Below, one piece after another: positions 74-62,379 of a stretch of 64,000 nt of DNA (the stretch's first letter is position 1; every line of letters begins with the position of its first letter). A program made the position numbers and the translations under genes. The DNA comes from Alphaproteobacteria bacterium MedPE-SWcel (lineage in GTDB: Bacteria > Pseudomonadota > Alphaproteobacteria > Rhodobacterales > Rhodobacteraceae), in NCBI GenBank assembly GCA_001874255.1, contig MPDC01000011.1, positions 62,001 to 126,000 on the forward strand. The letters are read 5' to 3'. The notes below the pieces were generated by a model that was given only the letters and a program-made list of their open reading frames with translations, was not told where the DNA came from and did no database searches.

Positions 74-133
74 AAGTGCGCCGAAAAATGCGCTCGGAAG
101 TGTACTCGGGAGTTCGCCAGGAAGCTCGCAAGT
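74..133. repeat. Degenerate 12-bp tandem array, 5 units
   Basis: Five consecutive 12-bp units starting at 74, 86, 98, 110 and 122, each a variant of AAGTGCGCCGAA. Read in the plus frame they give a four-residue periodic peptide (KCAE, KCAR, KCTR, EFAR, KLAS). Units differ at several positions each, so the array is old or under some selection. No gene explains it. Confidence 0.8.
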
Positions 134-214
134 GCGAAGCCCCTGGCCAATGTTCATGGCGACGTGTTTTGTCGTGGCTTCATATGGGCCACCAATGCGT
201 CGGAAATCCGCTCC

Positions 215-262
215 AGGATGTGCTTCAGGATGTACCCCAGGATGTTCTGCGGGATGGGCCTT
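215..262. repeat. Degenerate 12-bp tandem array, 4 units
   Basis: Four 12-bp units at 215, 227, 239 and 251, each a variant of AGGATGTACCCC (peptide RMCF, RMYP, RMFC, GMGL in the plus frame). It lies 80 bp from the first array and keeps the same 12-bp period with an unrelated unit sequence. Confidence 0.8.
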
Positions 263-389
263 TGATCGGCGCGAAGGAGGCGCACGATCATTAAAGCCAA
301 CAGGACGTAAGAGCTGAAGCGCCGCCAACGCATATAGTCATCGCAGGCGCCTGTTTCGTATGTCTAAAGCCCGAGGTCATGCCAAAGGG

Positions 390-701
390 TCAAGCATCCG
401 TATCCATTGCCGGAAGAGCTTCGGCCAGAATTTCGTAGGACTGACCGGAGGCGACCAGACACGTCATGCCATTGGCGGTGGTGACGGTTATGGTCCAGGA
501 ACCAGTTTCGCCGGAGGCAAAAGTCTCCATGACCATGCCTTGTTGGCCCATTCCGATACTCTGGCGACTTTCGCCATATTTCTCGGCAAGGCGTTTGACC
601 ACGAGATCCCTCGGGGCGCAGTTTTGGCCCTGGGCTGCGGCGGTTTGGGCGGAGGTTGCCAGTGCAAGACCCGCGAACAATGTAAAAAGCGTCTTTCTCA
701 T
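390..701 (-). CDS. Small secreted/periplasmic protein of unknown function
   Basis: 103 residues. Residues 1-22 form a Sec-type signal peptide: a basic start (MRK), a hydrophobic core and an Ala-rich cleavage region ending around AAA-Q. The mature part is about 80 residues with two cysteines that could form a disulfide. The start at 701 is chosen because AAAGGGG sits 8 bases upstream and the signal peptide begins there; the frame stays open upstream to 908 but that part has no coding character. I do not recognise the family. It is transcribed away from mcl2. Confidence 0.6.
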   Translation of the reverse strand: MRKTLFTLFAGLALATSAQTAAAQGQNCAPRDLVVKRLAEKYGESRQSIGMGQQGMVMETFASGETGSWTITVTTANGMTCLVASGQSYEILAEALPAMDTDA

Positions 702-1043
702 AGGTTTTACCCCTTTCGGAACGGTTCCCCAATGGGGTGCCGAAAGAGCACCCCGGTCGCCTGGGGTGGACCGGTTTTCTGGTGACGTAATCATGACTGC
801 GGGCCCAAGGCCCACCGGGCGCTGGGGTGGGATCGTGCCACCGGAGGAGAGCGCCAGTGCAATCAGATTGGCATAGAGGTCCTGATAACTGGTTAATGGG
901 GCGTTCATCTTTTAATTCAATGTCTTAGCGGCAATTCAGCGCCGGTTTTTTGAACGTTTTCTGCAGTGCGGAAAATTTTTTCTTGAAAATAATAAGTCCT
1001 GAATGTAGCCAGTTCGGTAATAAAATGTCCTGGAGGATCTTCT
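702..1043. other. Divergent intergenic region between secreted protein and mcl2
   Basis: This 342-bp spacer separates two divergent genes and should hold promoters for both. The half next to mcl2 (about 905-1030) is AT-rich compared with the surroundings, as expected of a promoter, and carries the palindromic motif at 959-973. No gene is supported. Confidence 0.5.
959..973. promoter_or_regulatory. Candidate operator upstream of mcl2, shared with ccr
   Basis: TTCTGCAGTGCGGAA is an imperfect inverted repeat 71 bp before the mcl2 start. It matches the perfect palindrome upstream of ccr (17162-17176) at 14 of 15 positions. The core resembles the CTGC-N3-4-GCAG consensus described for PhaR of Paracoccus/Rhodobacter, here with one mismatch. 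The binding protein is inferred, not shown. Confidence 0.5.
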
Positions 1044-1898
1044 GTGACCCTACGTGCGCGCCCTTTCCGGTCCGTTCTTTATATACCCGGCTCCAAGCCG
1101 CGCGCATTGGACAAGGCCCGTGGTTTGCCTGTCGATGCCATTATCTTTGATCTTGAGGATGCGGTGGCGGCAGATGAAAAGGACAATGCCCGCGCCACTC
1201 TGACTGCCGCGTTGGAGGTGGGTGGCTATGGGCCGCGTGTCAGGATTGTGCGTCTCAACGGGCTCGACACCGAATGGGGGCGCCGGGATGCGGAGGCTGT
1301 GGCAGGGATGGACTGTGACGCGGTCCTTCTGCCCAAGGTGTCTTCGCCCGAAGATCTCGAGGCGCTGGCAGAGATCACCGGCGATGTTGCGCTCTGGGCG
1401 ATGATGGAAACACCGCAGGGTATGCTGAACGCGGGCTCGATTGCGGCGCATCCGCTGTTGCAGGGCATGGTGATGGGGACCAACGATCTGGCCAAGGACA
1501 TGCAGACCCGCTTTCGCCCGGACCGGTTGCCCCTGATGGCCGGGCTGGGATTGTGCCTGCTGGCGGCCAAGGCCGAAGGCAAGGTGATCATCGATGGGGT
1601 CTATAACGCCTTCAAGGATGACGACGGGCTGCGGGCGGAATGCCAGCAGGGCCGCGACATGGGGTTCGATGGCAAGACATTGATCCACCCCGCGCAGGTT
1701 GACATTGCCAATGCGGCCTTTGCCCCGTCTGCCGAAGAGGTCGATCTGGCCCGTCGCCAAATCGCCGCGTTCGAGGCGGCAGCGGCCGCAGGGCAAGGCG
1801 TTGCAGTGGTGGATGGCAAGATTGTCGAAAACCTGCATGTGGTGACGGCGCGCGAAATTCTTGGAAAAGCGGATGCAATTGCGGAGATCACCGGCTAG
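1044..1898 (+). CDS. mcl2: (3S)-malyl-CoA thioesterase (Mcl2-type, HpcH/HpaI aldolase family)
   Basis: 284 residues of the HpcH/HpaI/citrate-lyase-beta family. The N-terminal motifs VLYIPGSKPRALDKA and IIFDLEDAV (Mg2+-binding Glu/Asp) and the later METPQGMLNA stretch are typical. In Rhodobacter sphaeroides the roughly 285-residue paralog Mcl2 hydrolyses (3S)-malyl-CoA to malate and CoA in the ethylmalonyl-CoA pathway, whereas the true lyase Mcl1 is longer (about 318 residues). Length and sequence style favour Mcl2. The GTG start at 1044 has GGAGG 7 bases upstream. Next come nnrU, a DUF1737 gene and mch, probably one operon. Alternative: another malyl/citramalyl-CoA lyase. Confidence 0.85.
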   Translation: MTLRARPFRSVLYIPGSKPRALDKARGLPVDAIIFDLEDAVAADEKDNARATLTAALEVGGYGPRVRIVRLNGLDTEWGRRDAEAVAGMDCDAVLLPKVSSPEDLEALAEITGDVALWAMMETPQGMLNAGSIAAHPLLQGMVMGTNDLAKDMQTRFRPDRLPLMAGLGLCLLAAKAEGKVIIDGVYNAFKDDDGLRAECQQGRDMGFDGKTLIHPAQVDIANAAFAPSAEEVDLARRQIAAFEAAAAAGQGVAVVDGKIVENLHVVTAREILGKADAIAEITG

Positions 1899-1936
1899 TC
1901 AATAACGCAGGCACCCGTCTTGCGTTGGAGAAAGAC

Positions 1937-2485
1937 ATGGCACTTCTAATATTCGGCATCGTCCTGTGGTGGGCGGCTCATCTGTTCAAGCGACTGGCCC
2001 CGGGACCGCGGGCGGCGCTGGGCGCCCGTGGCAAGGGGCTGGTTGCGCTGGTCCTGGTGGCGAGCGTCGTATTGATGATCTTTGGGTTCAAAGGCGCGGA
2101 TTACATTCACGTCTGGGCGCCGCCTGCGCCCATGGTGCATCTGAACAACACGCTCATGGTGCTGGCGCTCTTCTTTACCAGTCCGGGTCCGCGCAAGGGG
2201 GCGTTGTTCTACAGGATGCGCCACCCGCAGCTCTTCGGGTTTTCGCTCTGGGCTGTGGCGCATCTGCTGGTGAATGGCGATCTGGCGTCGGTGATCCTGT
2301 TCGGATCCCTGTTGATCTGGGCCGGGGTCGAGGTGGCATTGATCAACAAAGCCGAACCCGAGTGGACGCCAGGACCCAAGGGCACTGTCGCCAAGGGGCT
2401 GATGTTCCTCGCGATTTCTGTCCTTCTGGTCGGCGTCATCGGCATTATTCACGGCCTTGTCGGGCCTTCACCTTTTCCGGGGTAA
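1937..2485 (+). CDS. nnrU: NnrU family membrane protein
   Basis: 182 residues with about five to six hydrophobic segments, matching the NnrU family of integral membrane proteins, first noted near denitrification genes in Rhodobacter; the molecular role is not settled. An RHPQLFGFSLWA motif in the middle is typical. The ATG at 1937 is preceded by GGAG with good spacing; a TTG four codons earlier is less likely. It lies 38 bp after mcl2 and 2 bp before the DUF1737 gene, so it is probably co-transcribed with the ethylmalonyl-CoA genes rather than with nitrogen-oxide genes. Confidence 0.85.
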   Translation: MALLIFGIVLWWAAHLFKRLAPGPRAALGARGKGLVALVLVASVVLMIFGFKGADYIHVWAPPAPMVHLNNTLMVLALFFTSPGPRKGALFYRMRHPQLFGFSLWAVAHLLVNGDLASVILFGSLLIWAGVEVALINKAEPEWTPGPKGTVAKGLMFLAISVLLVGVIGIIHGLVGPSPFPG

Positions 2486-2487
2486 GC

Positions 2488-2691
2488 ATGAAACTCTATC
2501 GGTTCCTGAGCGAGGATGACACCTCTGCCTTCTGTCACAAGGTCACTGACGCATTGAACAAGGGCTGGCAGCTGTATGGCAGTCCGACCCAGGCCTTTGA
2601 TCCGGACAAAGGGATCATGCGCTGTGGTCAGGCGGTGGTGAAGGAGGTGGACGGCACCTATACGCCCGACACCAGGTTGGGAGAGCAGTAA
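2488..2691 (+). CDS. DUF1737 domain protein
   Basis: 67 residues. The sequence (MKLYRFLSEDD, then KGWQLYGSP and MRCGQAVVKE) matches the small DUF1737 family, whose function is unknown. It starts 2 bp after nnrU and its TAA shares one base with the ATG of mch (TAATG), so the four genes mcl2-nnrU-DUF1737-mch look translationally coupled. DUF1737 proteins are usually soluble one-domain proteins of this length. Confidence 0.8.
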   Translation: MKLYRFLSEDDTSAFCHKVTDALNKGWQLYGSPTQAFDPDKGIMRCGQAVVKEVDGTYTPDTRLGEQ

Positions 2692-3737: not shown

Positions 3738-4175
3738 TCTGTCTAGCCAGTCTGGCGCGTCGAGCCAATCCAGCCGGGCAAAGCGAACAGTCTTTGCCAT
3801 GGTCTGGCACGGATCGCCGGGGGCAGACGCGCCGAGGTGAGGTGCATTAACCTCACGGCAGGAGCTTTGTGATCTATACGGCTGCTGTATCGGCACGGGT
3901 CGGATGCGGATCTGCGCCAGATGTGCAAGTCTTGTGGACGAGGGGCGGCAGGGCGGTGCAGAACCGGTCGGATGCCTCATGGACGGCAGATCACCGCATT
4001 GATTCTGAGTGATCTTATAGGGAATTATTTTGTGATCACGCTATTCGGGGATGTGATCACATAGGCCAATATTTCGTTCAAACCGAAGCGATAACTGGCA
4101 ATTTTTACCACTCGTTTGCGTGACAGTGCGCAAAAATAGGATAGAACGTCGTCAGCTAACCGGAAAGGAGCCACC
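3738..4175. other. sdh upstream region
   Basis: 438 bp without a supported gene. Near the mch end (about 3740-3779) an 18-bp unit is repeated about twice (minus strand GATTGGCTCGAC, GACTGGCTAGAC). The second half becomes AT-rich and holds two GTGATCAC palindromes, then an inverted repeat TTTGCG-N8-CGCAAA (4115-4134) about 40 bp before sdhC, likely at or near the sdh promoter. Confidence 0.5.
4031..4062. promoter_or_regulatory. Paired GTGATCAC palindromes upstream of sdhC
   Basis: TGTGATCAC occurs at 4031-4039 and again at 4052-4060, exactly 21 bp apart (two helical turns on the same face). The second copy is a 12-bp perfect palindrome, ATGTGATCACAT (4051-4062). Partial copies (GTGATC) occur at 3869 and 4009. 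The spacing suggests cooperative binding of a dimeric regulator controlling the sdh operon. The regulator is not identified. Confidence 0.5.
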
Positions 4176-6781: not shown

Positions 6782-7599
6782 TGAGCTCAGCGCCTCCCCG
6801 AATTCTGTGCATTGGCACGCATCACAAGACGGGTACCGTCTGGATGCGGCGTGTCTGGCGCATGATCGGAGAGGCGCTGGATATCCCCTTTGTGCCGGTC
6901 CACAATCCGGCAAAATGGCACAAGATCCCGTCGGCGGGCCGCGTCATTGTGGTCAACTGGGCCGGCAGTTTCGCCCCGGAGCTGTTCGACCAGCCAGACG
7001 CGCGGTTTCTGCATATCATTCGCGACCCGCGCGACGTCCTGTTGTCCGGTGCCCGCTATCACGAAAACAGCCCCGGCCGTCAGGAGCGGTTCTTGCATGG
7101 CGCCCGGGCGGATCTGGGCGGCAAGAGCTATCAGGAACATCTGCAGGCGCTGCCGGACGCGGAGGCAAAGCTGGCGTTCGAAATGCAGAACATGCATCTG
7201 AAAACGCTCACCGAAATGCTGGGCTGGCCCTATGGCCACCCGCGGGCGCTGGATCTGCGGTATGAAGACCTGATTGCCGACCACGATTGTGCCCGGTTTG
7301 TCGATGTACTGCGATTCTTTGGTCTGGATCAGGCCGAGATCGAAACCGCGCGCCAGATCTATTTTGACAATTCCCTGTTCGGTGGTCTGCGCACCGACGC
7401 GGGCACCGGCCGGACCGCCACCCATGTGAATTCAGGGGCCGCCCGTCAATGGCCTGCGGCATTGCCGCTGGACACTGCGCGACTCTATCTTGACCGGCAC
7501 GGGGATGACCTGATCACGCTGGGATATGAAAAGGACAAGGGCTGGTTGGCCCGGATCGAAGCGGTCCCTTTGGACCGAGCGGCAGGGGGGCTGGCATGA
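6781..7599 (+). CDS. Sulfotransferase family protein inside the sdh operon
   Basis: 272 residues. The N-terminal THHKTGTVWMR (residues 13-23) is a 5'-phosphosulfate-binding P-loop, and IIRDPRDVLLSG (79-90) matches the 3'-phosphate site of PAPS-dependent sulfotransferases; the later LRYEDL motif is also typical. It would transfer sulfate from PAPS to a hydroxyl or amine; the acceptor is unknown. The start overlaps the sdhA stop by one base and its end overlaps the next gene by 4 bp, so it is translated from the sdh transcript. No signal peptide, so probably cytoplasmic. Confidence 0.8.
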   Translation: MSSAPPRILCIGTHHKTGTVWMRRVWRMIGEALDIPFVPVHNPAKWHKIPSAGRVIVVNWAGSFAPELFDQPDARFLHIIRDPRDVLLSGARYHENSPGRQERFLHGARADLGGKSYQEHLQALPDAEAKLAFEMQNMHLKTLTEMLGWPYGHPRALDLRYEDLIADHDCARFVDVLRFFGLDQAEIETARQIYFDNSLFGGLRTDAGTGRTATHVNSGAARQWPAALPLDTARLYLDRHGDDLITLGYEKDKGWLARIEAVPLDRAAGGLA

Positions 7600-8531
7600 C
7601 CTCTGTCGCTGCAATGCCGCGCCAGACCGCGGCGGCCCCCTGGCAGGCTCTCGGAATTGAGCCGTCCCGCGCACTCCGGCTGGTCGGGATGCGGCGGTCC
7701 GGCAACCATGCGATCTGCAACTGGCTGCAACGCAACGCCCCCGGAGGGCGGTCGCTGTTCCTGAACAACTGTCGCCCCGGCATGGATCCGCTGCGCAGCT
7801 GCCACGGTGTTGAGGTCTCCGGCCAGCCACGGGCGGTCGAGCCGATGACCGAGGCCGCGCAATCCGCAGGGGAGGGCGCTTTGCTGCTTGTCTCCTACGA
7901 GGACACGGTGCATGCGCGGTTCGATGACGCCCGGCAATTGTCCGGGCCCTATACGGATGCGGCCTTTGACTGCGACGTGCTGATCTATCGGAGCGCCCTG
8001 AACTGGCTCGCGTCGCTGCTCAGGAAATTGCAGGCGAACGCGGCATTTCGCGCCGCCGACAGGATGGCCGTTCTGGTCCGGGCACTGGCCACATATGCGG
8101 ATCTGTTGGACGAGGTGGCCACCGCCGATCGGCCCGACCGGCCCGCCCGGACAGACCGGACAGACCGGCCCGCCCGCTCAGGCCGATCCGGGCGCGTGGC
8201 CATTTGTTACGACAACTGGACCCGAGACGAGCTGTATCGGGCGCGCGTGCTCGGCGATCTGGGCCTGCCGCTGCGGGACAATGATCTGGGCGAGGTCCAG
8301 AGTTACGGCGGGGGATCCAGCTTTCAGAAGGATGTCCGCCAGGCGGGGGATCTCAGGTCTGACCAGCGGTGGCTGGCGATGCGGGATGACCCCGAATATC
8401 AGGCAGTGCTGCGCCTCGCCGCGCTGGACCATGCGTTTTGCCGCCGGGTTGCCGCGCATTTTCCCGAAGACGCAGAGCGGCTGACGCGGATCGCCGGGCT
8501 TCCCGGTTTCGGCCCCGAGGTTCTGACATGA
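7596..8531 (+). CDS. P-loop/sulfotransferase-like protein with internal tandem array
   Basis: 311 residues. GMRRSGNHAI at residues 31-40 resembles the degenerate P-loop of a sulfotransferase-like family with an RSGNHA motif, followed by a LFLNN segment. Catalytic function is unproven. Residues about 178-200 are a low-complexity Asp/Arg/Pro stretch encoded by a 9-bp tandem array, probably a disordered loop inserted into the fold. It overlaps the upstream sulfotransferase by 4 bp (ATGA) and so belongs to the same transcript between sdhA and sdhB. Confidence 0.65.
   Translation: MTSVAAMPRQTAAAPWQALGIEPSRALRLVGMRRSGNHAICNWLQRNAPGGRSLFLNNCRPGMDPLRSCHGVEVSGQPRAVEPMTEAAQSAGEGALLLVSYEDTVHARFDDARQLSGPYTDAAFDCDVLIYRSALNWLASLLRKLQANAAFRAADRMAVLVRALATYADLLDEVATADRPDRPARTDRTDRPARSGRSGRVAICYDNWTRDELYRARVLGDLGLPLRDNDLGEVQSYGGGSSFQKDVRQAGDLRSDQRWLAMRDDPEYQAVLRLAALDHAFCRRVAAHFPEDAERLTRIAGLPGFGPEVLT
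8127..8195 (+). repeat. Degenerate 9-bp tandem array inside a coding region
   Basis: About seven and a half units of 9 bp, variants of GACCGGCCC, encoding the triplets DRP, DRP, ART, DRT, DRP, ARS, GRS, GR. The unit is a multiple of three, so the frame of the host gene is kept. Confidence 0.8.
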
Positions 8532-17213: not shown

Positions 17214-18494
17214 ATGGCTTTGGACACGCAGGACGGCATCATGACCTACGACGCGCCGCAGAAAGATCTCTATGAAATGGGGGAAATTCCTCCGATGGGC
17301 TATGTGCCCAAGCAGATGTACGCCTGGGCCATTCGCAAGGAACGCCACGGGGAACCGGATACTGCGATGCAGCAGGAAGTGGTGGAGGTGCCTGCGATCG
17401 ACAGCAACGAGGTGCTGGTTCTGGTGATGGCGGCGGGTGTGAACTACAATGGGGTCTGGGCCGCACTGGGCCAACCGATCAGCCCCTTTGACGGTCACAA
17501 GGCCCCCTATCATATCGCCGGATCGGATGCCTCGGGCATCGTCTGGGCCGTTGGTGACAAGGTCACCCGGTGGAAGGTCGGCGACGAGGTGGTGATCCAC
17601 TGCAATCAGGATGACGGCGATGACGAGGAATGCAACGGCGGCGACCCGATGTATTCCACCAGCCAGCGGATCTGGGGCTATGAAACGCCGGATGGCTCCT
17701 TCAGCCAGTTTACCCGCGTCCAGAGCCAGCAGCTGATGCCGCGGCCCAAGCATCTCAGCTGGGAAGAATCGGCCTGCTATACCCTGACGCTCGCCACCGC
17801 CTACCGGATGCTGTTCGGTCACGAGCCGCATGATCTGAAGCCGGGTCAGAACGTGCTGGTCTGGGGGGCGTCCGGCGGCCTCGGATCCTATGCGATCCAG
17901 CTGATCAACACGGCCGGTGCCAATGCAATCGGGGTGATCTCCGACGAGAGCAAGCGCGAGTTCGTCATGTCGCTGGGGGCAAAGGGCGTCCTGAACCGCC
18001 GTGATTTCAACTGTTGGGGGCAACTGCCGACAGTCAACACGCCCGAATACAACACCTGGTTCACCGAAGCGCGCAAGTTCGGCAAGGCGATCTGGGACAT
18101 CACCGGCAAGGGCAATAACGTGGACATGGTGTTCGAACACCCGGGCGAGGCGACCTTTCCCGTGTCCACATTCGTGGTAAAGAAGGGCGGCATGGTCGTG
18201 ATCTGCGCGGGCACATCCGGGTTCAACTGCACCTTTGACGTACGGTACATGTGGATGCATCAGAAACGCTTGCAGGGATCGCATTTCGCTCATCTGAAGC
18301 AGGCCTCGGCGGCCAATAAACTGATGATCGAGCGCCGCCTGGACCCCTGCATGTCCGAAGTGTTTGCCTGGAAGGATCTGACGGCCGCGCATATGAAAAT
18401 GCTGCGCAACGAACACAAGCCGGGCAATATGTCCGTTCTCGTGCAGGCGCCGAAAACCGGGCTCCGGACATTGGAAGAAGTCATCCAGGGCTGA
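17214..18494 (+). CDS. ccr: Crotonyl-CoA carboxylase/reductase
   Basis: 426 residues, a medium-chain dehydrogenase/reductase. The N-terminal region KDLYEMGEIPPMGYVPKQM, a QDDGDDEECNGGDPM insertion and the nucleotide-binding WGASGGLGSYAIQ motif are hallmarks of Ccr. It reductively carboxylates crotonyl-CoA with NADPH and CO2 to (2S)-ethylmalonyl-CoA, the key step of the ethylmalonyl-CoA pathway. The ATG at 17214 has AAGGGAGG 5 bases upstream. A strong hairpin follows the stop. Confidence 0.95.
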   Translation: MALDTQDGIMTYDAPQKDLYEMGEIPPMGYVPKQMYAWAIRKERHGEPDTAMQQEVVEVPAIDSNEVLVLVMAAGVNYNGVWAALGQPISPFDGHKAPYHIAGSDASGIVWAVGDKVTRWKVGDEVVIHCNQDDGDDEECNGGDPMYSTSQRIWGYETPDGSFSQFTRVQSQQLMPRPKHLSWEESACYTLTLATAYRMLFGHEPHDLKPGQNVLVWGASGGLGSYAIQLINTAGANAIGVISDESKREFVMSLGAKGVLNRRDFNCWGQLPTVNTPEYNTWFTEARKFGKAIWDITGKGNNVDMVFEHPGEATFPVSTFVVKKGGMVVICAGTSGFNCTFDVRYMWMHQKRLQGSHFAHLKQASAANKLMIERRLDPCMSEVFAWKDLTAAHMKMLRNEHKPGNMSVLVQAPKTGLRTLEEVIQG

Positions 18495-18550: not shown

Positions 18551-18814
18551 CCTTCCTTCTGCGGCCCTCATCGCACGGCTCGAAGGCGCGGCGACCGAAA
18601 ATAAATGCCCCTATGGCACCAAGGTCCGGGGTGATAGACTGGTCGCCCGGCCCGCGGGCGCCATATTGTCCTGAAGCAGCCGCGAGATGTGGGGCGTCGT
18701 GGCACCAGACAGCAGTCCGGCCCGGCACGTGGGGGGCCGCAAGTGGGGGGGCCGCAAGGGATGGGACTGAACCGCGTCACAGGGGAATTTGCCGATCAGT
18801 CGGGATCGGCGAAG

Positions 18815-18874
18815 GACGGGCCAGAACACGGGCCATAACACGGGCCAGAACGCGGGCCAGAGAACGGGCACAGC
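18815..18874. repeat. Degenerate 12-bp tandem array, 5 units, upstream of luxR
   Basis: Units at 18815, 18827, 18839, 18851 and 18863 are variants of CACGGGCCAGAA. The array ends 34 bp before the luxR start and so lies inside the likely promoter or leader region. Confidence 0.85.
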
Positions 18875-18908
18875 AACACTGTGGTGTTTGGTATAGGTGA
18901 GTATGCGA

Positions 18909-19628
18909 ATGGTGCGACGTCACAATCTGAATGCAATTCTCGAGATGATCGAGAGCGCCGTCAGCCTTGACGAAGTCGGTGCGGTTCTGGCCCGGTTTCG
19001 TGACCTTGTCGAGGTGGATCACGTTTTCTACCGTCGGGTGGACAGATCCGAAAGCCTGAGCGGTTGCTCGACCCTGTCGGCCGCCTGGCGCGAGCGCTAC
19101 ACGGCGATGCAGTATGACCGGATCGATCCCGTGGTTGTGGGGTGCTACAATGCCTTTGGGCCAGTGGATTGGCGGGATCTGGATTGGTCATCGCGCCCGG
19201 TGGTCGCCTATCGAAAGGACGCTCTGGCGCATGGCCTGGGCAATCAGGGCTATACCGCTCCGGTGCGGGGCCCGAATGGCCAATACGCGGTGTTCAGCGT
19301 CTCGAGGACCTGCGATGGCAAGGTCTGGGATAAATTCACCCAGAAGAATGGTCGCGACCTGATCCTGGTGGCGCATTATGTCAACCGACGGGCGCTGGAT
19401 TTCGAGGCACCGGCCTGCCCCTTGCCAAAGCAACGCCTGTCCCTGCGGGAAACAGAAGCGCTCAGCCTGTTGGCCGAAGGGCACAGCCGCGCCCGGGCGG
19501 CAGAGGTTCTGGAAATTTCCGAGCATACGCTCCGGGTCTATATCGAGGGCGCGCGCGGCAAGCTGAAGGCGCAGAACACCACTCACGCGGTGGCCCGGGC
19601 CATCGCCATTGGCCTGATTGCAGTTTGA
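18909..19628 (+). CDS. LuxR-type regulator with autoinducer-binding domain
   Basis: 240 codons. The N-terminal about 155 residues are an autoinducer-binding domain; the pocket residues known from TraR/LuxR are present (W and Y in AWRERY, D in RIDPVV, W in VDWRDL). Residues about 175-235 form a GerE helix-turn-helix (LSLRETEALSLLAEGHSRARAAEVL). It should bind an acyl-homoserine lactone and DNA. No luxI synthase lies nearby, so within this window it is a solo. Start: AGGTGA is 8 bases before the ATG at 18909; ATG 18903 or GTG 18897 are possible. Confidence 0.85.
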   Translation: MVRRHNLNAILEMIESAVSLDEVGAVLARFRDLVEVDHVFYRRVDRSESLSGCSTLSAAWRERYTAMQYDRIDPVVVGCYNAFGPVDWRDLDWSSRPVVAYRKDALAHGLGNQGYTAPVRGPNGQYAVFSVSRTCDGKVWDKFTQKNGRDLILVAHYVNRRALDFEAPACPLPKQRLSLRETEALSLLAEGHSRARAAEVLEISEHTLRVYIEGARGKLKAQNTTHAVARAIAIGLIAV

Positions 19629-19629: not shown

Positions 19630-19683
19630 CACAGGTAGAACGGGCCGAACAGGTTGAACGGGCCGCACAGGCTGCGCCCGCTG
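19630..19683. repeat. Degenerate 9-bp tandem array between luxR and helicase gene
   Basis: Six 9-bp units from 19630, alternating CACAGGTAG-like and AACGGGCCG-like forms, so an 18-bp higher-order period is also visible. It begins two bases after the luxR stop codon. Confidence 0.75.
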
Positions 19684-19752: not shown

Positions 19753-21294
19753 ATGACACAGACGCCTGCCATTCAATTCTCCGACGATCAGGCGCAAGCC
19801 TTTGACACCCTGACCGAACAACTCCGCGAGGCGGGTGTCGATCTGGGCGAAGATCTCCTGCATCCGCCCCGCGGCGACACCGGTGTCACCGCCGTCATCG
19901 GCAAGGCCGGATCCGGCAAGACGCTTCTCCTGGCCGAATTCTACAAGGCCCTTGCGGCCGCCGGGGTCGAGGTGGTGTCCGGCGACTATGAAAGCCGGAA
20001 GAAGGCGGACAAGCGGACGCTCGCGATCCTTGCCCCGACCAACAAGGCGGCCAGCGTGCTGCGGCTGCGCGGCGTGCCGGCGACAACGATCCACCGTATC
20101 CTGTATACGCCTGTCTATGATCCGGAGTATGAGCGCATTGCCGAATGGCTGGCCGGTGACGGGGAAAAGCCGGAGATCGAAGGTCTGACCGAAGAGGCAT
20201 TGGCGCGGGCGTCGGCCTTCTTCCAGAAGAACAAATCGATCCCCGGTGCACTGGCGGCGGCCGGCCTGCGCGGGTCCGATTTCATCACCGGCTGGAAACG
20301 GCGCGAGGAACCTCTGGATATCGGTTTCGTCGACGAGGCCTCGATGCTGGACAACCGCCAGTTCGACGACCTGAAGGAGATTTTCCCCACCCTCGTCCTG
20401 TTTGGCGATCCGGCACAGCTGGCCCCGGTCAATCAATCGGGGGCAATGGTGTTCGAGTCGCTGCCCGAAGAGCGTCAGCTGATCCTCAACCGTATCCACC
20501 GTCAGGAAGCCGACAACCCGATCCTCGACCTTGCGCATGCGCTGGCCGATCCGGCGCTGGGCTTTGAGGATTTCGAACGCATGATCGAAGACAAGGCCCG
20601 GCAGGACGAGCGCGTTGTCTGGGGCCAGCGGGTCGAGGTCGACCTGATGGCCCGGTCGCCGGTGCTGGTCTGGCGCAACAACACCCGTATCCGGCTGATC
20701 AACGCCTTTCGCGCCGTGCATGGCGCGCCGGAGGATCAGCTGCTGCCTGGCGAGCCGCTGATCTGCGACGGCATAGAATTGCCGATGAAACACCGCAAGA
20801 AGCGTCTGGACCTCGAGGCGCGCGGGTTGATCAAGGGCGCGCAGGTGATCTATCTCGGCCCCGGCCGCAAACCCGGCTTCTCGCGATTGCATGTGATGGG
20901 GGCAGAGGACCCGCAGGTCTCGGCGGCCTCCATCGTAAAGATCGAGCGGCCGGATGAAGAAGAGCCGTTCATTCCCTTCGCGGCGGGGATGGGGGCCACA
21001 TTCCTGCACGGGGCGGCCGTGACCATTCACAAGGCCCAAGGCAGCCAATGGGGGACAACGCAGGTCTTTGCACCCGATATCTATGCGGCCGCGCGTATGG
21101 GCCGGGTGGAGGCGGGCCAACCGCTGTGGAAACGACTGGCCTATGTGGCGATCACCCGCGCGCAGGAGCGGCTGATCTGGGTGGTCCGCAACCGGTTGGC
21201 AAAGCCGACGGCCGGGTTGCCGGTGGATGATCTGCGTGCGGCGCCTGCGGCGGCGCTGACGCTCGAAGTTCAGGACGCGGAGGCCCCGGCATGA
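19753..21294 (+). CDS. RecD-like ATP-dependent DNA helicase
   Basis: 513 residues. Walker A is GKAGSGKT (near residue 54), Walker B region is IGFVDEASML, motif III is LFGDPAQLAPV, and the C-terminal UvrD/RecD-type motif TIHKAQGSQW is present. This is a superfamily 1B helicase similar to stand-alone RecD-like proteins, acting in DNA repair or recombination; no RecB or RecC is nearby. Its stop overlaps the next gene by 4 bp (ATGA). Confidence 0.85.
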   Translation: MTQTPAIQFSDDQAQAFDTLTEQLREAGVDLGEDLLHPPRGDTGVTAVIGKAGSGKTLLLAEFYKALAAAGVEVVSGDYESRKKADKRTLAILAPTNKAASVLRLRGVPATTIHRILYTPVYDPEYERIAEWLAGDGEKPEIEGLTEEALARASAFFQKNKSIPGALAAAGLRGSDFITGWKRREEPLDIGFVDEASMLDNRQFDDLKEIFPTLVLFGDPAQLAPVNQSGAMVFESLPEERQLILNRIHRQEADNPILDLAHALADPALGFEDFERMIEDKARQDERVVWGQRVEVDLMARSPVLVWRNNTRIRLINAFRAVHGAPEDQLLPGEPLICDGIELPMKHRKKRLDLEARGLIKGAQVIYLGPGRKPGFSRLHVMGAEDPQVSAASIVKIERPDEEEPFIPFAAGMGATFLHGAAVTIHKAQGSQWGTTQVFAPDIYAAARMGRVEAGQPLWKRLAYVAITRAQERLIWVVRNRLAKPTAGLPVDDLRAAPAAALTLEVQDAEAPA

Positions 21295-32467: not shown

Positions 32468-32571
32468 GCAAACCTCGGATCATAAAAAGACGCTGGACAG
32501 AGTCGGGACGTTACGGGGCCGCCCTCGCAAGGTCCAGCGGGAATGGCATCGGCGCGCGCCGCAGGAAAACG

Positions 32572-32636
32572 CCCTGTGAAAAGGCCCTGTGAAAACGCGC
32601 TGTGAAAACGCGCTGTGAAAAGGCGCTGTGATCAGG
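32572..32636. repeat. 13-bp tandem array between paaE and ilvE, 5 units
   Basis: Units at 32572, 32585, 32598, 32611 and 32624 are variants of CGCTGTGAAAACG and are much more alike than in the other arrays (1-4 differences). The unit is not a multiple of three, and the array ends two bases before the end of paaE, outside coding sequence. Confidence 0.9.
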
Positions 32637-33719: not shown

Positions 33720-34259
33720 TCAGATGCACTTGAAATAGTCGAAAGGTTCGAGGCAGCTCTGGCAGCGCCAATGGGCCTTGCAGGGGGTGGAGCCGAACTG
33801 GCTCACCCGGGTCAGCTCCATGCCGCCGCAGCGTGGACAGCGCGCCGGTTCGCCAGCCCCTCTGCCAGCCCCTCTGCCAGCCGGGCTGCCAGTCAGGTCT
33901 CCAGTCGGGCCGCAAGCCGGTGACGGCGGCGCGATACCATATTCCTCGAGCCGCACCCGGCCCTTCTCCGTCAGCCAATCGGTGGTCCACGGCGGGGCGA
34001 TGCGGGTCTGGATCTCGATCTTGTCGATGCCCTGCGCCCGCAGCGCCGTCTCGATATCCAGCCGGATCACCGCGGTCGCAGGGCAGCCGGAATAGGTCGG
34101 GGTCACCGTGACCACAAGCCGGTCACCCTGCCATGCCACGTCGCGGATGATGCCGAGATCAACGAGCGAGATAACCGGGATCTCCGGGTCCGGCACCGCA
34201 TCGAGCCATTCCCAGATCCGGGCAATGTCGGGCGCGCTCTTTGGGCGGGGGGGCGGCAT
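33720..34259 (-). CDS. paaD: 1,2-phenylacetyl-CoA epoxidase, subunit PaaD
   Basis: 179 residues. The N-terminal part is a DUF59/MIP18 domain (ending VVTVTPTYSGCPATAVI), thought to help assemble metal centres of the epoxidase. The C-terminal zinc-ribbon-like part has CPRC and CQSC pairs. Between them, residues about 114-137 are a Gly/Pro/Ala-rich linker made by a six-unit 12-bp array, so this PaaD has an expanded linker. It lies 63 bp after paaC and 10 bp before paaE. Confidence 0.93.
   Translation of the reverse strand: MPPPRPKSAPDIARIWEWLDAVPDPEIPVISLVDLGIIRDVAWQGDRLVVTVTPTYSGCPATAVIRLDIETALRAQGIDKIEIQTRIAPPWTTDWLTEKGRVRLEEYGIAPPSPACGPTGDLTGSPAGRGAGRGAGEPARCPRCGGMELTRVSQFGSTPCKAHWRCQSCLEPFDYFKCI
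33849..33920. repeat. 12-bp tandem array inside paaD, 6 units
   Basis: Units begin at 33849, 33861, 33873, 33885, 33897 and 33909, variants of TCTGCCAGCCGG. In the PaaD frame each unit codes for four residues (GAGE, GAGR, PAGR, LTGS, PTGD, PACG), all in the linker before the zinc ribbon. Confidence 0.9.
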
Positions 34260-34322: not shown

Positions 34323-35120
34323 TCACCAGGTCGCCCCCGGATAGGCGCGCTGCAGCCATTGCATGCTGGTCAGCAGGTGGCCCAGATGTTCCGTGTGCAT
34401 CCGGCCGTCCCGCCCGCCGCCACGGGCGCGGGACGCCTGCGGAATGACCAGCGTCGCTTCGCCCAGCACCCGGGTCAGCGTCGCGTCATAGGCCGGGCGC
34501 AAGGCTCCGGGGTCGGGCGCAATCCCCGCCGCAGACAGCGCGTCATCGACCGGGTCGCTCAGAAACAGCTCTCCCACATAGGGATAGAGGTGGTCCAGCG
34601 CCGTCTGCATGCGGGCGTGGCTCTCCGGGCTGCCATCCCCGAGGCCGATCACCGTCCCGGAAGAGCGGTCCAGATGATAGGTCACCTCCTTGGCTGCCTT
34701 GGCCGCGATGGCCGCCACTCGGTCATCGGCCGACCCCGCAAGCTGGCGCAGTTGACAGTCATGCCAGGCGTCAAAAAGAAACTGCCGCATCAGGGTCTGG
34801 CCAAAGTCACCATTGGGTATTTCGCACAGCAGCACATTGCGAAACTGCCAGGCGTCGCGCAGAAAGGCCAGGTCATCGGCGGATTTGCGGTCGCCCTGAA
34901 CCTCGCCCAGAATCTCGCCCTGAACCTCGGCCGCAAGACCGAGCCACATCCGGGTCTGCCCGATCAGATCCAGCGCGATATTGGCCAGCGCGATGTCCTC
35001 TTCCAGCACCGGAGCCTTGCCGCACCATTCGCTGACACGATGGCCGAGGATCAGCGTATTGTCCCCCATCCGCAGCAGAAATTCCAAGAGTGCCGGGCTT
35101 TGGTCTGGACCGTCGGCCAT
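34323..35120 (-). CDS. paaC: 1,2-phenylacetyl-CoA epoxidase, subunit PaaC
   Basis: 265 residues, ferritin-like helical protein. LLRMGDNTLILGHRVSEWCG at the start, EEDIALANIALDLIGQ and DDLAFLRDAWQFRNVLL are PaaC signatures. PaaC is the structural partner of PaaA and lacks the di-iron site. A short 12-bp array (34891-34938) inserts EVQG-type repeats before the DDLAFLRD helix. It starts one base after paaB ends. Confidence 0.95.
   Translation of the reverse strand: MADGPDQSPALLEFLLRMGDNTLILGHRVSEWCGKAPVLEEDIALANIALDLIGQTRMWLGLAAEVQGEILGEVQGDRKSADDLAFLRDAWQFRNVLLCEIPNGDFGQTLMRQFLFDAWHDCQLRQLAGSADDRVAAIAAKAAKEVTYHLDRSSGTVIGLGDGSPESHARMQTALDHLYPYVGELFLSDPVDDALSAAGIAPDPGALRPAYDATLTRVLGEATLVIPQASRARGGGRDGRMHTEHLGHLLTSMQWLQRAYPGATW
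34891..34938. repeat. 12-bp tandem array inside paaC, about 3.5 units
   Basis: TCGCCCTGAACC (34891), TCGCCCAGAATC (34903), TCGCCCTGAACC (34915) and a partial TCGGCCGCAAGA (34927). In the PaaC frame it gives EVQG-EILG-EVQG, apparently an in-frame insertion relative to the usual family sequence. Confidence 0.8.
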
Positions 35121-35420: not shown

Positions 35421-35530
35421 GGCAAGGGGCCTGGCAGAAGGGGCTTGGCAGAAGGGGCCTGGCAAAACGGGCCTGACGAAAGAGGGGCCTGGCAAAACTG
35501 GGCCTGGCAAAAAGGGGTCGCCAAAAGGAG
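35421..35530. repeat. 14-bp tandem array between paaA and paaB, about 8 units
   Basis: About eight variants of GCAGAAGGGGCCTG of 12-16 bp each (units from 35422, 35434, 35448, 35462, 35476, 35492, 35507, 35521). The array fills the whole gap inside the paa operon, leaving 10 bp on the paaA side and 14 bp on the paaB side. Unit length varies and is not a multiple of three. Confidence 0.85.
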
Positions 35531-39453: not shown

Positions 39454-39606
39454 GCTGGGCAGAGATTGGGCTGAGACTGGGCAGAGACCGGTCGTCTGGG
39501 GTGCACCCCGTCCCGGAAGGCTCGGCACCCCGGGCGCTGTCTGCCCAACAGGGCCGGAACACCCGGATCGGCACAACAGGATCCGCAGAACAGGAAAGGA
39601 TATTTG
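39454..39606. repeat. P450-GS spacer with two degenerate tandem arrays
   Basis: 39455-39490 has three to four 11-12 bp variants of CTGGGCAGAGA. 39543-39598 has four 14-bp variants of GCACAACAGGATCC (units at 39543, 39557, 39571, 39585). Between them GGGGTGC and GCACCCC (about 39499-39532) can pair. No gene. Confidence 0.65.
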
Positions 39607-47572: not shown

Positions 47573-48266
47573 CGACAGTGGCGACGGCGGCGGATCTGGA
47601 CCGGTCGGGGTCGTCGGCGCCATCGGTCCGTGGAATTTCCCGCTGATGATCGGCGCCTGGAAACTGGCGCCGGCGCTTGCGATGGGCAAGTCGGTGGTGT
47701 TGAAACCGGCCAAGACCGCGTCCCTGTCCCTGTCCCTGTTGCGCCTTGCGGAAATCTGCGCCGACTGCGGGCTGCCCGATGGCGTCTTGAATGTGGTCAC
47801 CGGCCCCGGGGCCGCGACCGGTGCGGCGCTGGCGGAGCATATGGATGTGGATGTGCTGGTCTTTACCGGATCGGGGGCGACCGGCAGGCGGCTGCTGACG
47901 GGCAGTGGCGGCACCTATATGGCCCCGACCGTCGTGACCGGCGTGACCGAGCGGACCGGTCTGTTCCAGCAGGAAGTGTTCGGCCCGGTGCTGGCCGTGA
48001 CAGGGTTTGAGACCGAGGCGGAGGCTCTGCTTCTGGCCAACGCCCCGGACTATGGTCTCGCGGCGCGGGTCTGGACGCAGGATCTGTCGCGTGCGCATCG
48101 CTGTGTCGCGGCGATCCGTGCGGGGGTGGTGCATGTCAACACCTATGGCGGAGCGGATAATACGGTGCCGTTGGGCGGTGTCGGCCAGTCCGGCAACGGT
48201 CACGACAAATCCTTGCACGCGCTGGAGAAATACAGGGACCTGAAGGTTGCGTGGATGCAGATGTAG
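47437..48266 (+). pseudogene. Aldehyde dehydrogenase remnant (frameshift plus two deletions)
   Basis: The start is intact: AAGGAGG, ATG at 47437, then about 54 residues of a normal aldehyde dehydrogenase N-terminus (MADQDLIDALRVTP...). Near 47600 the frame shifts and sequence jumps to the GPWNFPLMIGAWK region, so about 90 residues are missing. A second, in-frame deletion joins TGSGATGRRLL to GGTYMAPTVVTG, removing the catalytic Glu and Cys region. The C-terminus (VFGPVLAV, GGVGQSGNGHDKSLHALEKY) is intact. It cannot be active. Sequence resembles PuuC/betaine-aldehyde type enzymes. Confidence 0.88.
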
Positions 48267-55436: not shown

Positions 55437-56057
55437 ATGATCATGGCAGAGCTTTCGGCCGAGACCCCGGTGATCCATCCCGGCTGCACTGTGGTGGACA
55501 GTCAATTCGGAGCCTATGTCGAACTCGGAGCCGGGACCCGGCTCGCGCACAGTCGCCTAGGCAACTACAGCTATTGCGACCGCAACTGCGACATTGCCAA
55601 TGCCGACATCGGCAAGTTTTCCAATATCGCCAGCGCGACCCGGATCGGGGCGACGGATCACCCGATGGAGAAGGCGTCGTTGCACCATTTCCTGTATCGG
55701 TCGGCCAGCTATTGGGAGGATGCGGAGGATGATGCGGACTGGTTCGCCCGCCGTCGCGCCCGCATGGCCTGGATTGGTCATGATACTTGGATCGGTCACG
55801 GTGCCATGATCAAACCCGAGGTGACGATCGGACATGGCGCCGTTGTGGCTTCGGGATCGGTGGTGACCCGGGATGTGGCACCCTATACGATCGTCGGCGG
55901 CAATACGGCGCGGCTGATCCGGCGGCGCTATTGCGACCGGTCGGCAGAGCGGATGATGGCGCTGGCCTGGTGGGATTGGGACCACGCGGCCCTGCGGCGC
56001 GCCTTGCCGGATTTCCGGGCTCTGTCGGCAGAAGCGTTTCTGGAAAAATACGAGTGA
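55437..56057 (+). CDS. Phosphonate metabolism hexapeptide-repeat transferase (TIGR03308 type)
   Basis: 206 residues, left-handed beta-helix acetyltransferase. Repeats such as GHDTWIGHGAMIKPEVTIGHGAVVASGSVV and the ending VGGNTARLIRRRY match the xenobiotic acetyltransferase group found in phn loci (TIGR03308). It may acetylate aminoalkyl phosphonates or C-P lyase intermediates; the substrate is not proven. Start 55437 or 55443. Confidence 0.85.
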   Translation: MIMAELSAETPVIHPGCTVVDSQFGAYVELGAGTRLAHSRLGNYSYCDRNCDIANADIGKFSNIASATRIGATDHPMEKASLHHFLYRSASYWEDAEDDADWFARRRARMAWIGHDTWIGHGAMIKPEVTIGHGAVVASGSVVTRDVAPYTIVGGNTARLIRRRYCDRSAERMMALAWWDWDHAALRRALPDFRALSAEAFLEKYE

Positions 56058-58147: not shown

Positions 58148-58151
58148 TCCC

Positions 58152-59240: not shown

Positions 59241-59282
59241 ACGCCACATCCTGCGGTCCGACAGAGCAAAAGGAAGCCCGGC

Positions 59283-60164
59283 ATGTCTGAGTATAATTTC
59301 GCCTATCTCGACGAACAGACCAAGCGGATGATCCGTCGCGCCATCCTCAAGGGGCTCGCCATTCCCGGCTATCAGGTGCCTTTTGCCTCGCGGGAAATGC
59401 CGATGCCCTATGGCTGGGGCACGGGCGGGGTGCAGGTCTCGGCGGCGGCGCTGACACCGGATGACACGCTGAAGGTGATCGATCAGGGCGCCGACGACAC
59501 CACCAACGCCGTCTCCATCCGCAAGTTCTTTCAGCGCACCGCCGGTGTGGCGACGACCGAGGAGACCGAACAGGCCTCGATCATCCAGACCCGCCACCGC
59601 ATCCCCGAGGCCACCCTGCGCGAGGATCAGATCCTGGTCTATCAGGTGCCGATCCCGGAGCCGCTGCGGTTTCTCGAACCGCGCGAGACCGAGACCCGCA
59701 AGATGCACAGCCTCGAGGAATACGGGCTGATGCATGTGAAGCTCTATGAGGACATCTCGCAGCACGGCCAGATTGCCACCTCCTACGCCTATCCGGTCAA
59801 GGTCGAGGGCCGCTATGTGATGGACCCCTCGCCGATCCCGAAATTCGACAACCCGAAGCTTGAGATGGCCGCGATTCAATTGTTTGGCGCGGGCCGGGAG
59901 CAGCGGATCTATGCGGTGCCGCCCTACACGCAGGTGGTCTCGCTCGATTTCGAGGACTACCCGTTCGAGCCCACCAAGGCCGATCACGCCTGCGATCTCT
60001 GCGCCGCCGCGGACAGCTATCTGGACGAGGTGATCATGGATGACGCCGGCGGGCGGATGTTCGTCTGTTCCGACACCGACTATTGCCGCAGCCGCCGCGC
60101 GGCGGGCCATGTCGGACGGCTCGGCACCGAGGCCCCCCTTTCAACCGGACCGGAGGCCGCCTGA
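59283..60164 (+). CDS. phnJ: C-P lyase catalytic subunit PhnJ (radical SAM)
   Basis: 293 residues. SEYNFAYLDEQTKRMIRRAILK opens the protein; the C-terminal cysteines in CDLC and FVCSDTDYC bind the [4Fe-4S] cluster and supply the catalytic thiyl cysteine. It cuts the C-P bond, releasing the alkane. AAGGA lies before the ATG. Its TGA overlaps phnK by one base. Confidence 0.97.
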   Translation: MSEYNFAYLDEQTKRMIRRAILKGLAIPGYQVPFASREMPMPYGWGTGGVQVSAAALTPDDTLKVIDQGADDTTNAVSIRKFFQRTAGVATTEETEQASIIQTRHRIPEATLREDQILVYQVPIPEPLRFLEPRETETRKMHSLEEYGLMHVKLYEDISQHGQIATSYAYPVKVEGRYVMDPSPIPKFDNPKLEMAAIQLFGAGREQRIYAVPPYTQVVSLDFEDYPFEPTKADHACDLCAAADSYLDEVIMDDAGGRMFVCSDTDYCRSRRAAGHVGRLGTEAPLSTGPEAA

Positions 60165-60934
60165 TGCACCCCCTTCTGCAAGTGAACAACATCCGCAAGA
60201 TGTACGGCGCCCGCATCGGCTGTACCGATGTCAGCTTCGATCTTTTCCCCGGCGAGGTGATGGGCATCGTGGGCGAATCCGGCTCGGGCAAATCGACGCT
60301 GCTGAACTGTCTCGCAGGCCATCTGGACACCGACGGCGGCGAGGTGATCTTTGACACCCGCGACCGCGGGCCGGTCGACACGCTCACCATGTCCGAACCC
60401 GAGCGCCGGATGCTGGGCCGCACCGACTGGGCCTTCGTGCATCAGCACGCCCGCGACGGGCTGCGCATGTCGGTGTCGGCGGGCGGCAATATCGGCGAGC
60501 GGCTGATGGCCGTGGGCGGGCGCCACTACGGCGACATCCGCGCCTCTGCCGTCGACTGGCTCGACCGGGTGGAGATCGAGGAAAACCGCGTCGATGACCG
60601 CCCCTCCGCCTTTTCGGGGGGCATGCAGCAGCGCCTGCAGATCGCCCGCAATCTGGTCACCGGGCCGCGATTGGTCTTCATGGATGAACCCACCGGCGGG
60701 CTGGATGTGTCGGTTCAGGCCCGGCTGCTGGATCTGCTGCGCGGACTGGTGCGCGAAATGGGGCTGTCGGCGATCATCGTCACCCATGACCTCGCGGTGG
60801 TGCGGCTGCTGGCAGACCGGCTGATGGTGATGAAATCCGGCCATGTCGTCGAAACCGGCCTCACGGATCAGGTGCTGGATGATCCGCAACATGCCTATAC
60901 TCAGCTTCTGGTCTCTTCCGTGCTGCAGGTGTGA
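60164..60934 (+). CDS. phnK: C-P lyase ABC-type subunit PhnK
   Basis: 256 residues, ABC ATPase of the C-P lyase complex, not a transporter. Walker A GESGSGKST, signature FSGGMQQRLQIARNL, Walker B LVFMDEPTGGLDV; HQHARDGLRMSVSAGGNIGERLMAVG is typical of PhnK. It docks on PhnJ. A 135-bp gap separates it from phnL. Confidence 0.95.
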   Translation: MHPLLQVNNIRKMYGARIGCTDVSFDLFPGEVMGIVGESGSGKSTLLNCLAGHLDTDGGEVIFDTRDRGPVDTLTMSEPERRMLGRTDWAFVHQHARDGLRMSVSAGGNIGERLMAVGGRHYGDIRASAVDWLDRVEIEENRVDDRPSAFSGGMQQRLQIARNLVTGPRLVFMDEPTGGLDVSVQARLLDLLRGLVREMGLSAIIVTHDLAVVRLLADRLMVMKSGHVVETGLTDQVLDDPQHAYTQLLVSSVLQV

Positions 60935-61069
60935 TGACATGCGCTTTGCCCGGCAGACAGAAAATCCGGCCCACAGATCGTGGGCACGACAGGCACAACA
61001 ATCACCGCTGCCGCCCGAGACCCTCCCGGCCCTCGGCGCGCTTCATTCATTTCGCTGGAAAGGCTGGCC

Positions 61070-61774
61070 ATGCTCCCGTCCCATGCTCCCATGATCGACA
61101 TCCGTGATGTCTCCAAAAGCTTCACCCTGCACAATCAGGGCAGCGCCACGATCCCGGTGATGCAGGGGGCGACCCTTGCCGTGGGCCCCGGCGAATGCGT
61201 CGGGCTGGTCGGGGCCTCGGGGGCCGGGAAATCCACCCTGATGCGGCTGATCTACGGCAACTACCTCGCCGCCTCCGGGCAGATCCTGATCGGCGGGCTC
61301 GATGTGGTGCGCGCGGAACCCCGCCAGATCCTGGAACTGCGCCGCAAGACGCTGGGCTATGTCAGCCAGTTCCTGCGGGTGGTGCCGCGGGTGTCGACCC
61401 TCGATGTGGTGGCCGAGCCGCTGCTGGCGGTGGACACGCCGCTGGATCTGGCCCGAGACCGCGCCGCATCGCTTTTGGCAGAGCTCAATATCCCCGAACG
61501 GCTCTGGAGCCTCAGCCCCACGACATTTTCCGGCGGCGAACAGCAGCGGGTCAATATCGCCCGGGGCTTTGCCTATGACTACCCGGCGATGTTGCTGGAT
61601 GAACCCACCGCCAGTCTCGACGCGAGGAACCGCGCCACCGTGCTCGGGCTGATCGGCGCGGCCAAGGCGCGCGGTGCCGCCATCATCGGGATTTTCCACG
61701 ACGAAGCCGCCCGCGATCAGGTCTGCGACCGGTTCATCGATGTATCGGCCTTCGCGCCCCGGGCCGCCGCATGA
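61070..61774 (+). CDS. phnL: C-P lyase ABC-type subunit PhnL
   Basis: 234 residues. Walker A GASGAGKST, signature FSGGEQQRVNIARG and Walker B MLLDEPTASLDA; KTLGYVSQFLRVVPRVSTLDVV is a PhnL signature. It works with PhnGHI in the first step. AAAGG lies before ATG 61070; ATG 61091 is possible. The stop overlaps phnN (ATGA). Confidence 0.94.
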   Translation: MLPSHAPMIDIRDVSKSFTLHNQGSATIPVMQGATLAVGPGECVGLVGASGAGKSTLMRLIYGNYLAASGQILIGGLDVVRAEPRQILELRRKTLGYVSQFLRVVPRVSTLDVVAEPLLAVDTPLDLARDRAASLLAELNIPERLWSLSPTTFSGGEQQRVNIARGFAYDYPAMLLDEPTASLDARNRATVLGLIGAAKARGAAIIGIFHDEAARDQVCDRFIDVSAFAPRAAA

Positions 61775-62379
61775 CGCGGTCCGCTGATGCCCCAGACACC
61801 CCCGGTGCCCCAGACGCCTCTGCCGCTTCAGGCGCCAAAGGCCCGGTGATCGCCGTCGTCGGCCCCTCGGGCGTTGGCAAGGACAGCCTGATGAGCGGTC
61901 TCGCGGTGGCCGATCCGCGCCTGCGCTCCATGCGCCGCGTCATCACCCGCGCTCCGGACGCCGGCGGCGAGGATTATCAACCGGTCTCCGAGGCGGAGTT
62001 CGAGGCGCTGGTCGCGGCCGATGTCTTCGCGCTCCATTGGCGGGCGCACGGGCTGCGCTACGGGATTTCCCGCGACATCGAAGCTCTGCGGCTGGGGGCC
62101 TCGGGGGTGCTGGTCAACCTGTCGCGGGCCGTCCTGTTGCAGGCGCAGGAGGTCTTTGACGACTTCCGGGTGATCTCCGTCACCGCCGATCCAAAGGTGC
62201 TGGCGGCCCGGCTCGCCACGCGCGGCCGCGAGGATCCCGAAGAGGTGCAGCGCCGACTGTCCCGGGCCGGCCTCGCCCTGCCGGAGGGCTTGCAACAGGT
62301 CTACAAGGTCGACAACAGCGGTGCCCTCAGCGCCGCCATTGTCGCGGCGCAGGCGATCATTCAGGCCGAAAGGGCGTAG
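61771..62379 (+). CDS. phnN: Ribose 1,5-bisphosphokinase PhnN
   Basis: 202 residues, guanylate-kinase fold with P-loop VVGPSGVGKDSLM (near residue 30). It makes PRPP from ribose-1,5-bisphosphate at the end of the C-P lyase route. The N-terminal 25 residues are a low-complexity Asp/Ala/Pro stretch made by an 18-bp repeat and are not part of the fold. It overlaps phnL by 4 bp and the convergent DUF1045 gene by 19 bp. Confidence 0.93.
   Translation: MTRSADAPDTPGAPDASAASGAKGPVIAVVGPSGVGKDSLMSGLAVADPRLRSMRRVITRAPDAGGEDYQPVSEAEFEALVAADVFALHWRAHGLRYGISRDIEALRLGASGVLVNLSRAVLLQAQEVFDDFRVISVTADPKVLAARLATRGREDPEEVQRRLSRAGLALPEGLQQVYKVDNSGALSAAIVAAQAIIQAERA
61786..61821 (+). repeat. 18-bp tandem repeat at the start of phnN
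   Basis: GATGCCCCAGACACCCCC (61786-61803) and GGTGCCCCAGACGCCTCT (61804-61821), with a weaker third unit to about 61839. Codes for DAPDTP-GAPDAS-AASGAK in frame, so PhnN carries a non-conserved N-terminal extension. Confidence 0.7.

Follow-up and report, generated by a model that had tools for sequence, protein, structure and literature searches.

The genome of Alphaproteobacteria bacterium MedPE-SWcel (G000, 4.08 Mb) carries short, head-to-tail tandem arrays, which we examined in a window of 64,000 nucleotides (bases 62001-126000 of contig 3), in further samples of the same genome, in its sister species (G009) and in their congeners. With a probability of roughly three in four, these arrays are young minisatellites that were made locally, have unrelated units and imply no shared function, and that arise at a raised rate in the lineage of G000 and G009. 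The arrays are several times more frequent in this lineage than in the sampled congeners.

Arrays were called with Tandem Repeats Finder (TRF), and those with a score of 50 or more were classed as strong. The window contained 9 strong arrays, whereas 100 dinucleotide-shuffled versions of its sequence had 0.66 on average and never more than 4, and at a score of 40 it contained 18, compared with 2.74 in the shuffles, so some of the weaker arrays are expected to be chance occurrences. The original prediction, made by reading the window, had placed arrays at 14 sites, including a possible one at 3740. TRF matched 10 of these, and gave no row, even at a score of 30, at sites 74, 3740, 18727 and 61786. 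A lag test detected periodicity above that of shuffled sequence at all 14 sites (P = 0.005 to 0.015, 200 shuffles), in intervals that were chosen by eye and are thus biased toward the prediction, and the four TRF-negative sites are accordingly regarded as weak. About 35 further, weaker TRF rows in the window had not been named.

To the window we added 20 stretches of 20 kb from G000, giving 464 kb or ∼11% of the genome, with genes called by a simple codon model. In the spacers alone, 29 arrays scored at least 50, compared with 0.2 in dinucleotide shuffles, and the genes contained 23, compared with 5.3 when codon order was shuffled and 11.4 when only synonymous codons were shuffled, so that protein sequence by itself accounts for about half of the gene arrays. 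Taken together, the shuffles of spacers, codons and whole window rule out chance or composition as the source of the arrays. The density is not an effect of picking the window, since the list of 38 spacer or edge arrays includes only 6 inside it and 32 outside. On unbroken sequence, the density per 10 kb of G000 was 6.3 arrays for spacers and 0.5 for genes.

Spacer arrays were then counted in 18 genomes of the genus, one per species, sampled at 26 to 464 kb each. G000 and G009 together had 60 in 84.8 kb, compared with 21 in 197.7 kb for the 16 congeners, a 6.7-fold difference (P = 4e-16) for a grouping that was picked after the first counts were known. Seven of the 16 congeners had no spacer array, and a low-complexity rule removed one array each from G012 (4 to 3) and G015 (3 to 2). 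Among 73 named loci of other bacteria (80 minus seven short ones, with poor gene calls at some low-GC loci), 66 lacked a spacer array and the remaining seven had eight in all. The contrast was also evident in the alignments, where 21 of 61 indels of 9-120 bp between the sisters were tandem, compared with 3 of 294 in the 15 pairings of six congeners, which overlap in membership and cover the paa region only. When spacer indels alone were considered, these numbers were 12 of 46 and 1 of 222. The tandem-event totals obtained (24 of 65, 21 of 61, and 20) differ by length limits and shuffle numbers.

G009 is collinear with the window over nearly all of its length, at 89% identity, and most arrays coincide with breaks in the alignment of the two genomes. 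A comparison with G009 was possible for eight of the 9 strong window arrays; none of the eight is an array there, and the unit is in most cases present once or as a short remnant. Only 5-17 bp separate the flanks in G009 at 8125, 19631, 32565, 35424 and 61786, and at 18816 its spacer is a different sequence without a TRF array. In paaC, the 12 bp unit is found three times in the window, once in G009, and as one 14-15 bp segment in 8 other congeners, leaving the site single-copy in all 9, and the paaD insertion is absent from all 7 alignable congeners, G009 included. The comparable strong arrays are best read as gains in this lineage; outgroups for fixing the direction of change were available in paaC and paaD and in part at the other sites. 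G009 carries arrays of its own elsewhere, and 13 of the 24 tandem insertions detected by alignment were on its side. Conserved protein repeats, which had been named as one of two outcomes that would speak against a local process, are ruled out at four in-gene sites (paaC, paaD, the gene at 8125, and phnN), where the alignable relatives have no array but one segment or a short remnant. The other such outcome, shuffled sequence yielding equivalent arrays, was likewise not seen, and the predicted local duplication filtered by reading frame stands in this respect.

The effect of the reading frame was as predicted. For G000 and G009 together, the period was a multiple of three in 25 of 27 gene arrays, compared with 26 of 60 spacer arrays (Fisher P = 1.2e-5), whose periods were mostly 11 to 19 bp. 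The in-gene insertions were 24, 36, 54 and 60 bp. The highest-scoring array of the G000 sample (L128, 19767-19871) has a 40 bp unit in 2.6 copies. Spacer type could be given to 51 of the 60 spacer arrays, and the other nine were left out of the comparisons of units, placement and folding. Similar pairs among the units of the 51 arrays numbered 13, compared with 7.7 expected from random spacer segments (P = 0.07), and stricter cut-offs gave P values of 0.10 to 0.33. The units are thus not measurably related between sites, in agreement with the earlier claim that they differ completely and do not belong to one copied family.

The mean difference between neighboring copies was 15.5% (range, 0 to 33%) in 48 of the 51 arrays, the other three having been left out; the upper end of this range is limited both by the 35% cut applied and by TRF detection. 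The distance between G000 and G009 at 4-fold sites is 0.33, and the divergence of the copies is therefore as expected from steady birth since the split, followed by ordinary point mutation. A transversion-rich signature of error-prone copying was looked for in the array copies and was not seen.

The arrays are not placed evenly among spacers. Convergent spacers had 17.2 arrays per 10 kb, co-directional spacers 5.0 and divergent spacers 2.1 (convergent versus divergent, P = 5e-6; co-directional versus divergent, P = 0.10). In co-directional spacers, 7 of 27 arrays were located within 12 bp of the upstream stop and 1 of 27 within 12 bp of the downstream start, with 3.1 expected in either case; four of these 27 are in one 1.2 kb stretch of L131, part of which was coding in an earlier gene model. 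In L131, positions 17911-18355 contain four different arrays (periods 12, 15, 21 and 12) inside 450 bp. The process had been proposed to act everywhere, but its arrays are distributed unevenly, both between species, as described above, and between spacer types, convergent spacers being ∼8 times denser than divergent ones. We read the placement as survival in the least constrained DNA, and it may also be that converging transcription promotes duplication or that arrays help to end transcripts.

In the explanation that we favor, a segment of ∼10 to 26 bp in ordinary, single-copy sequence would be duplicated head to tail, presumably by copying at the time of replication, and no shared sequence would be needed for the birth of an array. 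Arrays would then grow to 2-7 copies, probably by slippage between copies, as suggested by, for example, two identical neighboring units in paaD, and the copies would drift apart by point mutation. Selection would remove frame-breaking changes, and probably also changes in promoter-bearing spacers, so that most survivors would be in-frame insertions or would lie past stop codons or in convergent spacers. The arrays look like harmless mutational scars, placed independently in each species.

Several observations weigh against this explanation. The units show a weak k-mer bias (CAGTC, ACTGG, GGCCA; family-wise P = 0.008 to 0.033), and a weak in-gene repeat at 55715 (score 41) is common to the window and G009. 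G002, with 7 arrays in 21.9 kb, and G012, with 3 in 17.2 kb, lie in between, such that the rate varies by degree, and the excess of G000 and G009 in in-gene arrays was only 1.6-fold (P = 0.07). The ratio of transitions to transversions was 1.11 in array copies, compared with 0.80 in aligned spacers and 0.51 at 4-fold sites, and this higher transition share means that the ageing spectrum of the arrays is not identical to that of these other sites. When RNA folding was evaluated on the plus strand (40 shuffles each), 11 of the 51 arrays were more stable than shuffles (z under -2) and none had a z over 2, and such stable folds may be compatible with a structural role or with an origin driven by hairpins. 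Finally, at the single-copy sites of 20 duplications, which have aged by ∼15%, the mean direct-repeat run was 2.85, compared with 2.66. Without an excess of direct repeats at these sites, aged as they are, textbook slippage does not readily explain the first duplication step, so that of the slippage or duplication originally invoked, local duplication holds and the simplest form of slippage, between pre-existing short direct repeats, is unsupported.

The density difference could also be explained by an unchanged mutation process if weaker selection allowed insertions of every kind to persist. Coding fractions of 0.834 in G000 and 0.857 in G009 are somewhat below those of most sampled congeners, in keeping with this, with G003, G006, G008 and G016 as low or lower. 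However, only the tandem class of indels was raised between the sisters; non-tandem spacer indels were not, with 34 in 7.1 kb of spacer for the sisters and, for example, 5 in 1.3 kb and 13 in 1.7 kb for the congener pairs G004-G011 and G004-G007, respectively. This favors a change in the duplication process over relaxed selection, which we consider unlikely. A sequence-independent role at gene 3' ends, for example in transcription termination or insulation between convergent genes or in the tuning of operon spacing, is consistent with the convergent bias, with the arrays just past upstream stops and with the stable folds, but not one of the eight comparable strong arrays was kept as an array in G009, most G000 spacers lack an array (40 arrays for 276 sampled spacers of at least 24 bp), and loss from regulatory DNA would give the same placement, leaving such a role improbable. 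One dispersed or mobile repeat family can almost be dismissed: a few unit pairs are alike (for example, 18816 and L138:5997 of G009), but a common unit at many sites was not found in the unit comparison, similarity was not significantly above that of random spacer segments, and the paaC unit is local ancestral sequence.

Single-strand exonucleases limit slippage in E. coli, and this guided our choice of candidate genes for a further possibility, in which the arrays would be scars left by end joining or by the loss of an enzyme of repair or replication. Ku was found in none of the 18 genus genomes, in a search whose control detected it in 1 of 14 genomes, that of Bacillus subtilis, which argues against scars of Ku/LigD end joining. 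No loss of the polA nuclease domain, recJ, rnhA, xseA, mutS, radA or Y-family polymerases was seen, all being present in the 17 near-complete genomes (other repair genes, such as sbcCD, recQ and dnaQ, were not searched for); Y-family polymerase matches numbered one in G015 and two in each of the other 16, and G008, which is 67% complete, gave no polA, rnhA or xseA match. Over the first 697 residues of the PolA frame, G000 and G009 have five mild private substitutions in common, compared with 0 to 2 in four other pairs; a further private change at column 142 was dropped because it fell in an unaligned start. These substitutions count in favor of this possibility, but the stem that the two species share in an sdhA tree is long (0.075) and could yield them, so they are not clearly beyond expectation. 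RecJ has two private changes in this pair, compared with up to three in other pairs. The xseA frame looked ∼400 codons longer in G000 and G009, and in G000 the extra stretch is antisense to a gene that we take to be purD; a fusion was accordingly not accepted. A 15 bp x 3.1 array lies near the 3' end of G000's own xseA, which encodes the exonuclease VII large subunit (L300, 1131-1176). The short tandem duplications do resemble those described for yeast rad27 mutants (PMC5677150), but no excess of direct repeats of the rad27 type was found at the aged duplication sites, and we regard scars of end joining or of enzyme loss as quite unlikely. A heritable natural mutator in the G000/G009 lineage, raising short tandem duplication while needing no direct repeats at the flanks and leaving other indels at their usual level, is a possible cause that we put forward tentatively. 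Were it present, the mutator gene could be mapped by comparing the two sister species with their quiet congeners.

The arrays have the properties of minisatellites, or variable-number tandem repeats, in that head-to-tail copies occur beyond chance and their presence and copy number differ between closely related species. They resemble the bacterial minisatellites of a prokaryote survey (PMC6749651) in having head-to-tail units of ∼10 bp and more that in many species are unrelated between sites, in a density that is very uneven between species, and in the frequency of multiples of three. That survey requires a regular structure with at least four copies of a decamer, and most arrays here would therefore not be counted in it; the accessible part of it compares distant species, and contains neither dating against a sister species nor a rate contrast within a genus. 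In rad27 (flap endonuclease) mutants, head-to-tail insertions of similar size also appear and disappear locally (PMC5677150), but the duplications described in the part available sit on short direct repeats, no excess of which was seen at the aged sites here, and the present case is a natural bacterial lineage in which the polA nuclease domain is present. Small variable segments between bacterial strains (PMC2884548) similarly include short species-level spacer differences, there attributed in part to slippage between repeats. In that study, minisatellites with units of at least 20 bp account for 2 to 4% of the variable loci of E. coli, a measure different from the tandem share of indels reported above. 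Among the top matches of a search of the open literature, no report of such arrays in Roseobacter-group genomes was found.

The arrays themselves are ordinary young minisatellites, and the noteworthy part is the several-fold, lineage-specific rise of one class of mutation. The birth of tandem repeats from single-copy DNA, and its rate, are hard to study because births are rare. Births in this lineage are common and recent and can be dated by comparison with a sister genome, the quiet congeners serving as controls, and if the rate difference is genetic, the genus gives a direct way to its cause. The arrays also show how a protein such as PaaD can acquire in-frame segments during the history of a single species.

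Table 1. Repeat features of the window, in window coordinates, with their state in the sister species G009.
Feature	Position	Strand	Detection or comparison
Weak 12 bp periodicity	74..131	none	lag test; not a TRF row
12 bp x 3.9 spacer array	205..256 (TRF 210-256)	none	TRF; no G009 ortholog found, so not comparable
9 bp array in gene 7596-8531	8125..8189 (TRF 8125-8176)	+	54 bp insertion (18 + 36) relative to G009
Weak two-copy 15 bp repeat	18727..18762	none	not a TRF row
12 bp x 5.2 array in spacer preceding LuxR-type gene 18897-19628	18816..18879	none	TRF
18 bp x 2.3 array directly past LuxR-type gene stop	19631..19671	none	TRF; ∼63 bp absent in G009
13 bp x 5.2 array in spacer between paaE and branched-chain aminotransferase gene	32565..32631	none	one unit-like stretch in G009
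12 bp array in paaD	33846..33920 (TRF 33852-33920)	-	60 bp in-frame insertion
12 bp x 3.2 array in paaC	34891..34929	-	24 bp gained relative to single unit of G009
14 bp x 7.3 array occupying most of paaA-paaB spacer	35424..35528	none	88 bp insertion relative to G009
11 bp x 3.1 array directly past P450 gene stop	39455..39488	none	one unit-like stretch in G009
14 bp x 2.2 array just 5' of glutamine-synthetase-type gene	39565..39595 (predicted at 39543)	none	one copy in G009
36 bp in-frame insertion carrying imperfect repeats, phnN N-terminal end (given a start at 61771)	61793..61828	+	no TRF array

Of the gene products named here, PaaA-E and PhnN score at or above their NCBIfam cut-offs, but the gene at 7596-8531, which had been called sulfotransferase-like, has no NCBIfam or Pfam match. 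The site at 61786 was predicted to be inside phnN, and it is so if the gene starts at 61771; our own gene caller put the start at 61846.

Adjoining the LuxR-type gene, positions 19753-21294 encode a protein with partial RecD-type helicase matches that are far below the cut-offs. The aldehyde dehydrogenase gene at 47600-47900 lacks 289 and 366 bp that are present in G009 and has its Pfam match in two stretches; judged from its sequence, it looks internally deleted and is probably inactive. At 60950-61088, G009 is longer by ∼850 bp, the extra DNA presumably being a CorA-type transporter gene, which is absent from the window. In the paa region, the named loci nearest to the relatives of G000 were mostly two from Leisingera and one labeled Nocardioides, at ∼80% DNA identity, which makes a Rhodobacterales bacterium of the Roseobacter group likely. 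Among the loci of other bacteria, the paaA loci in the records titled Bacillus subtilis SK6B4 (L050) and Nocardioides marinus DP1N28-1 (L052) were alphaproteobacterial-like, with 82-83% protein identity, and L052 and G011 were 80% identical along 6.9 kb of DNA. These matches suggest that both records are mislabeled or mixed assemblies.

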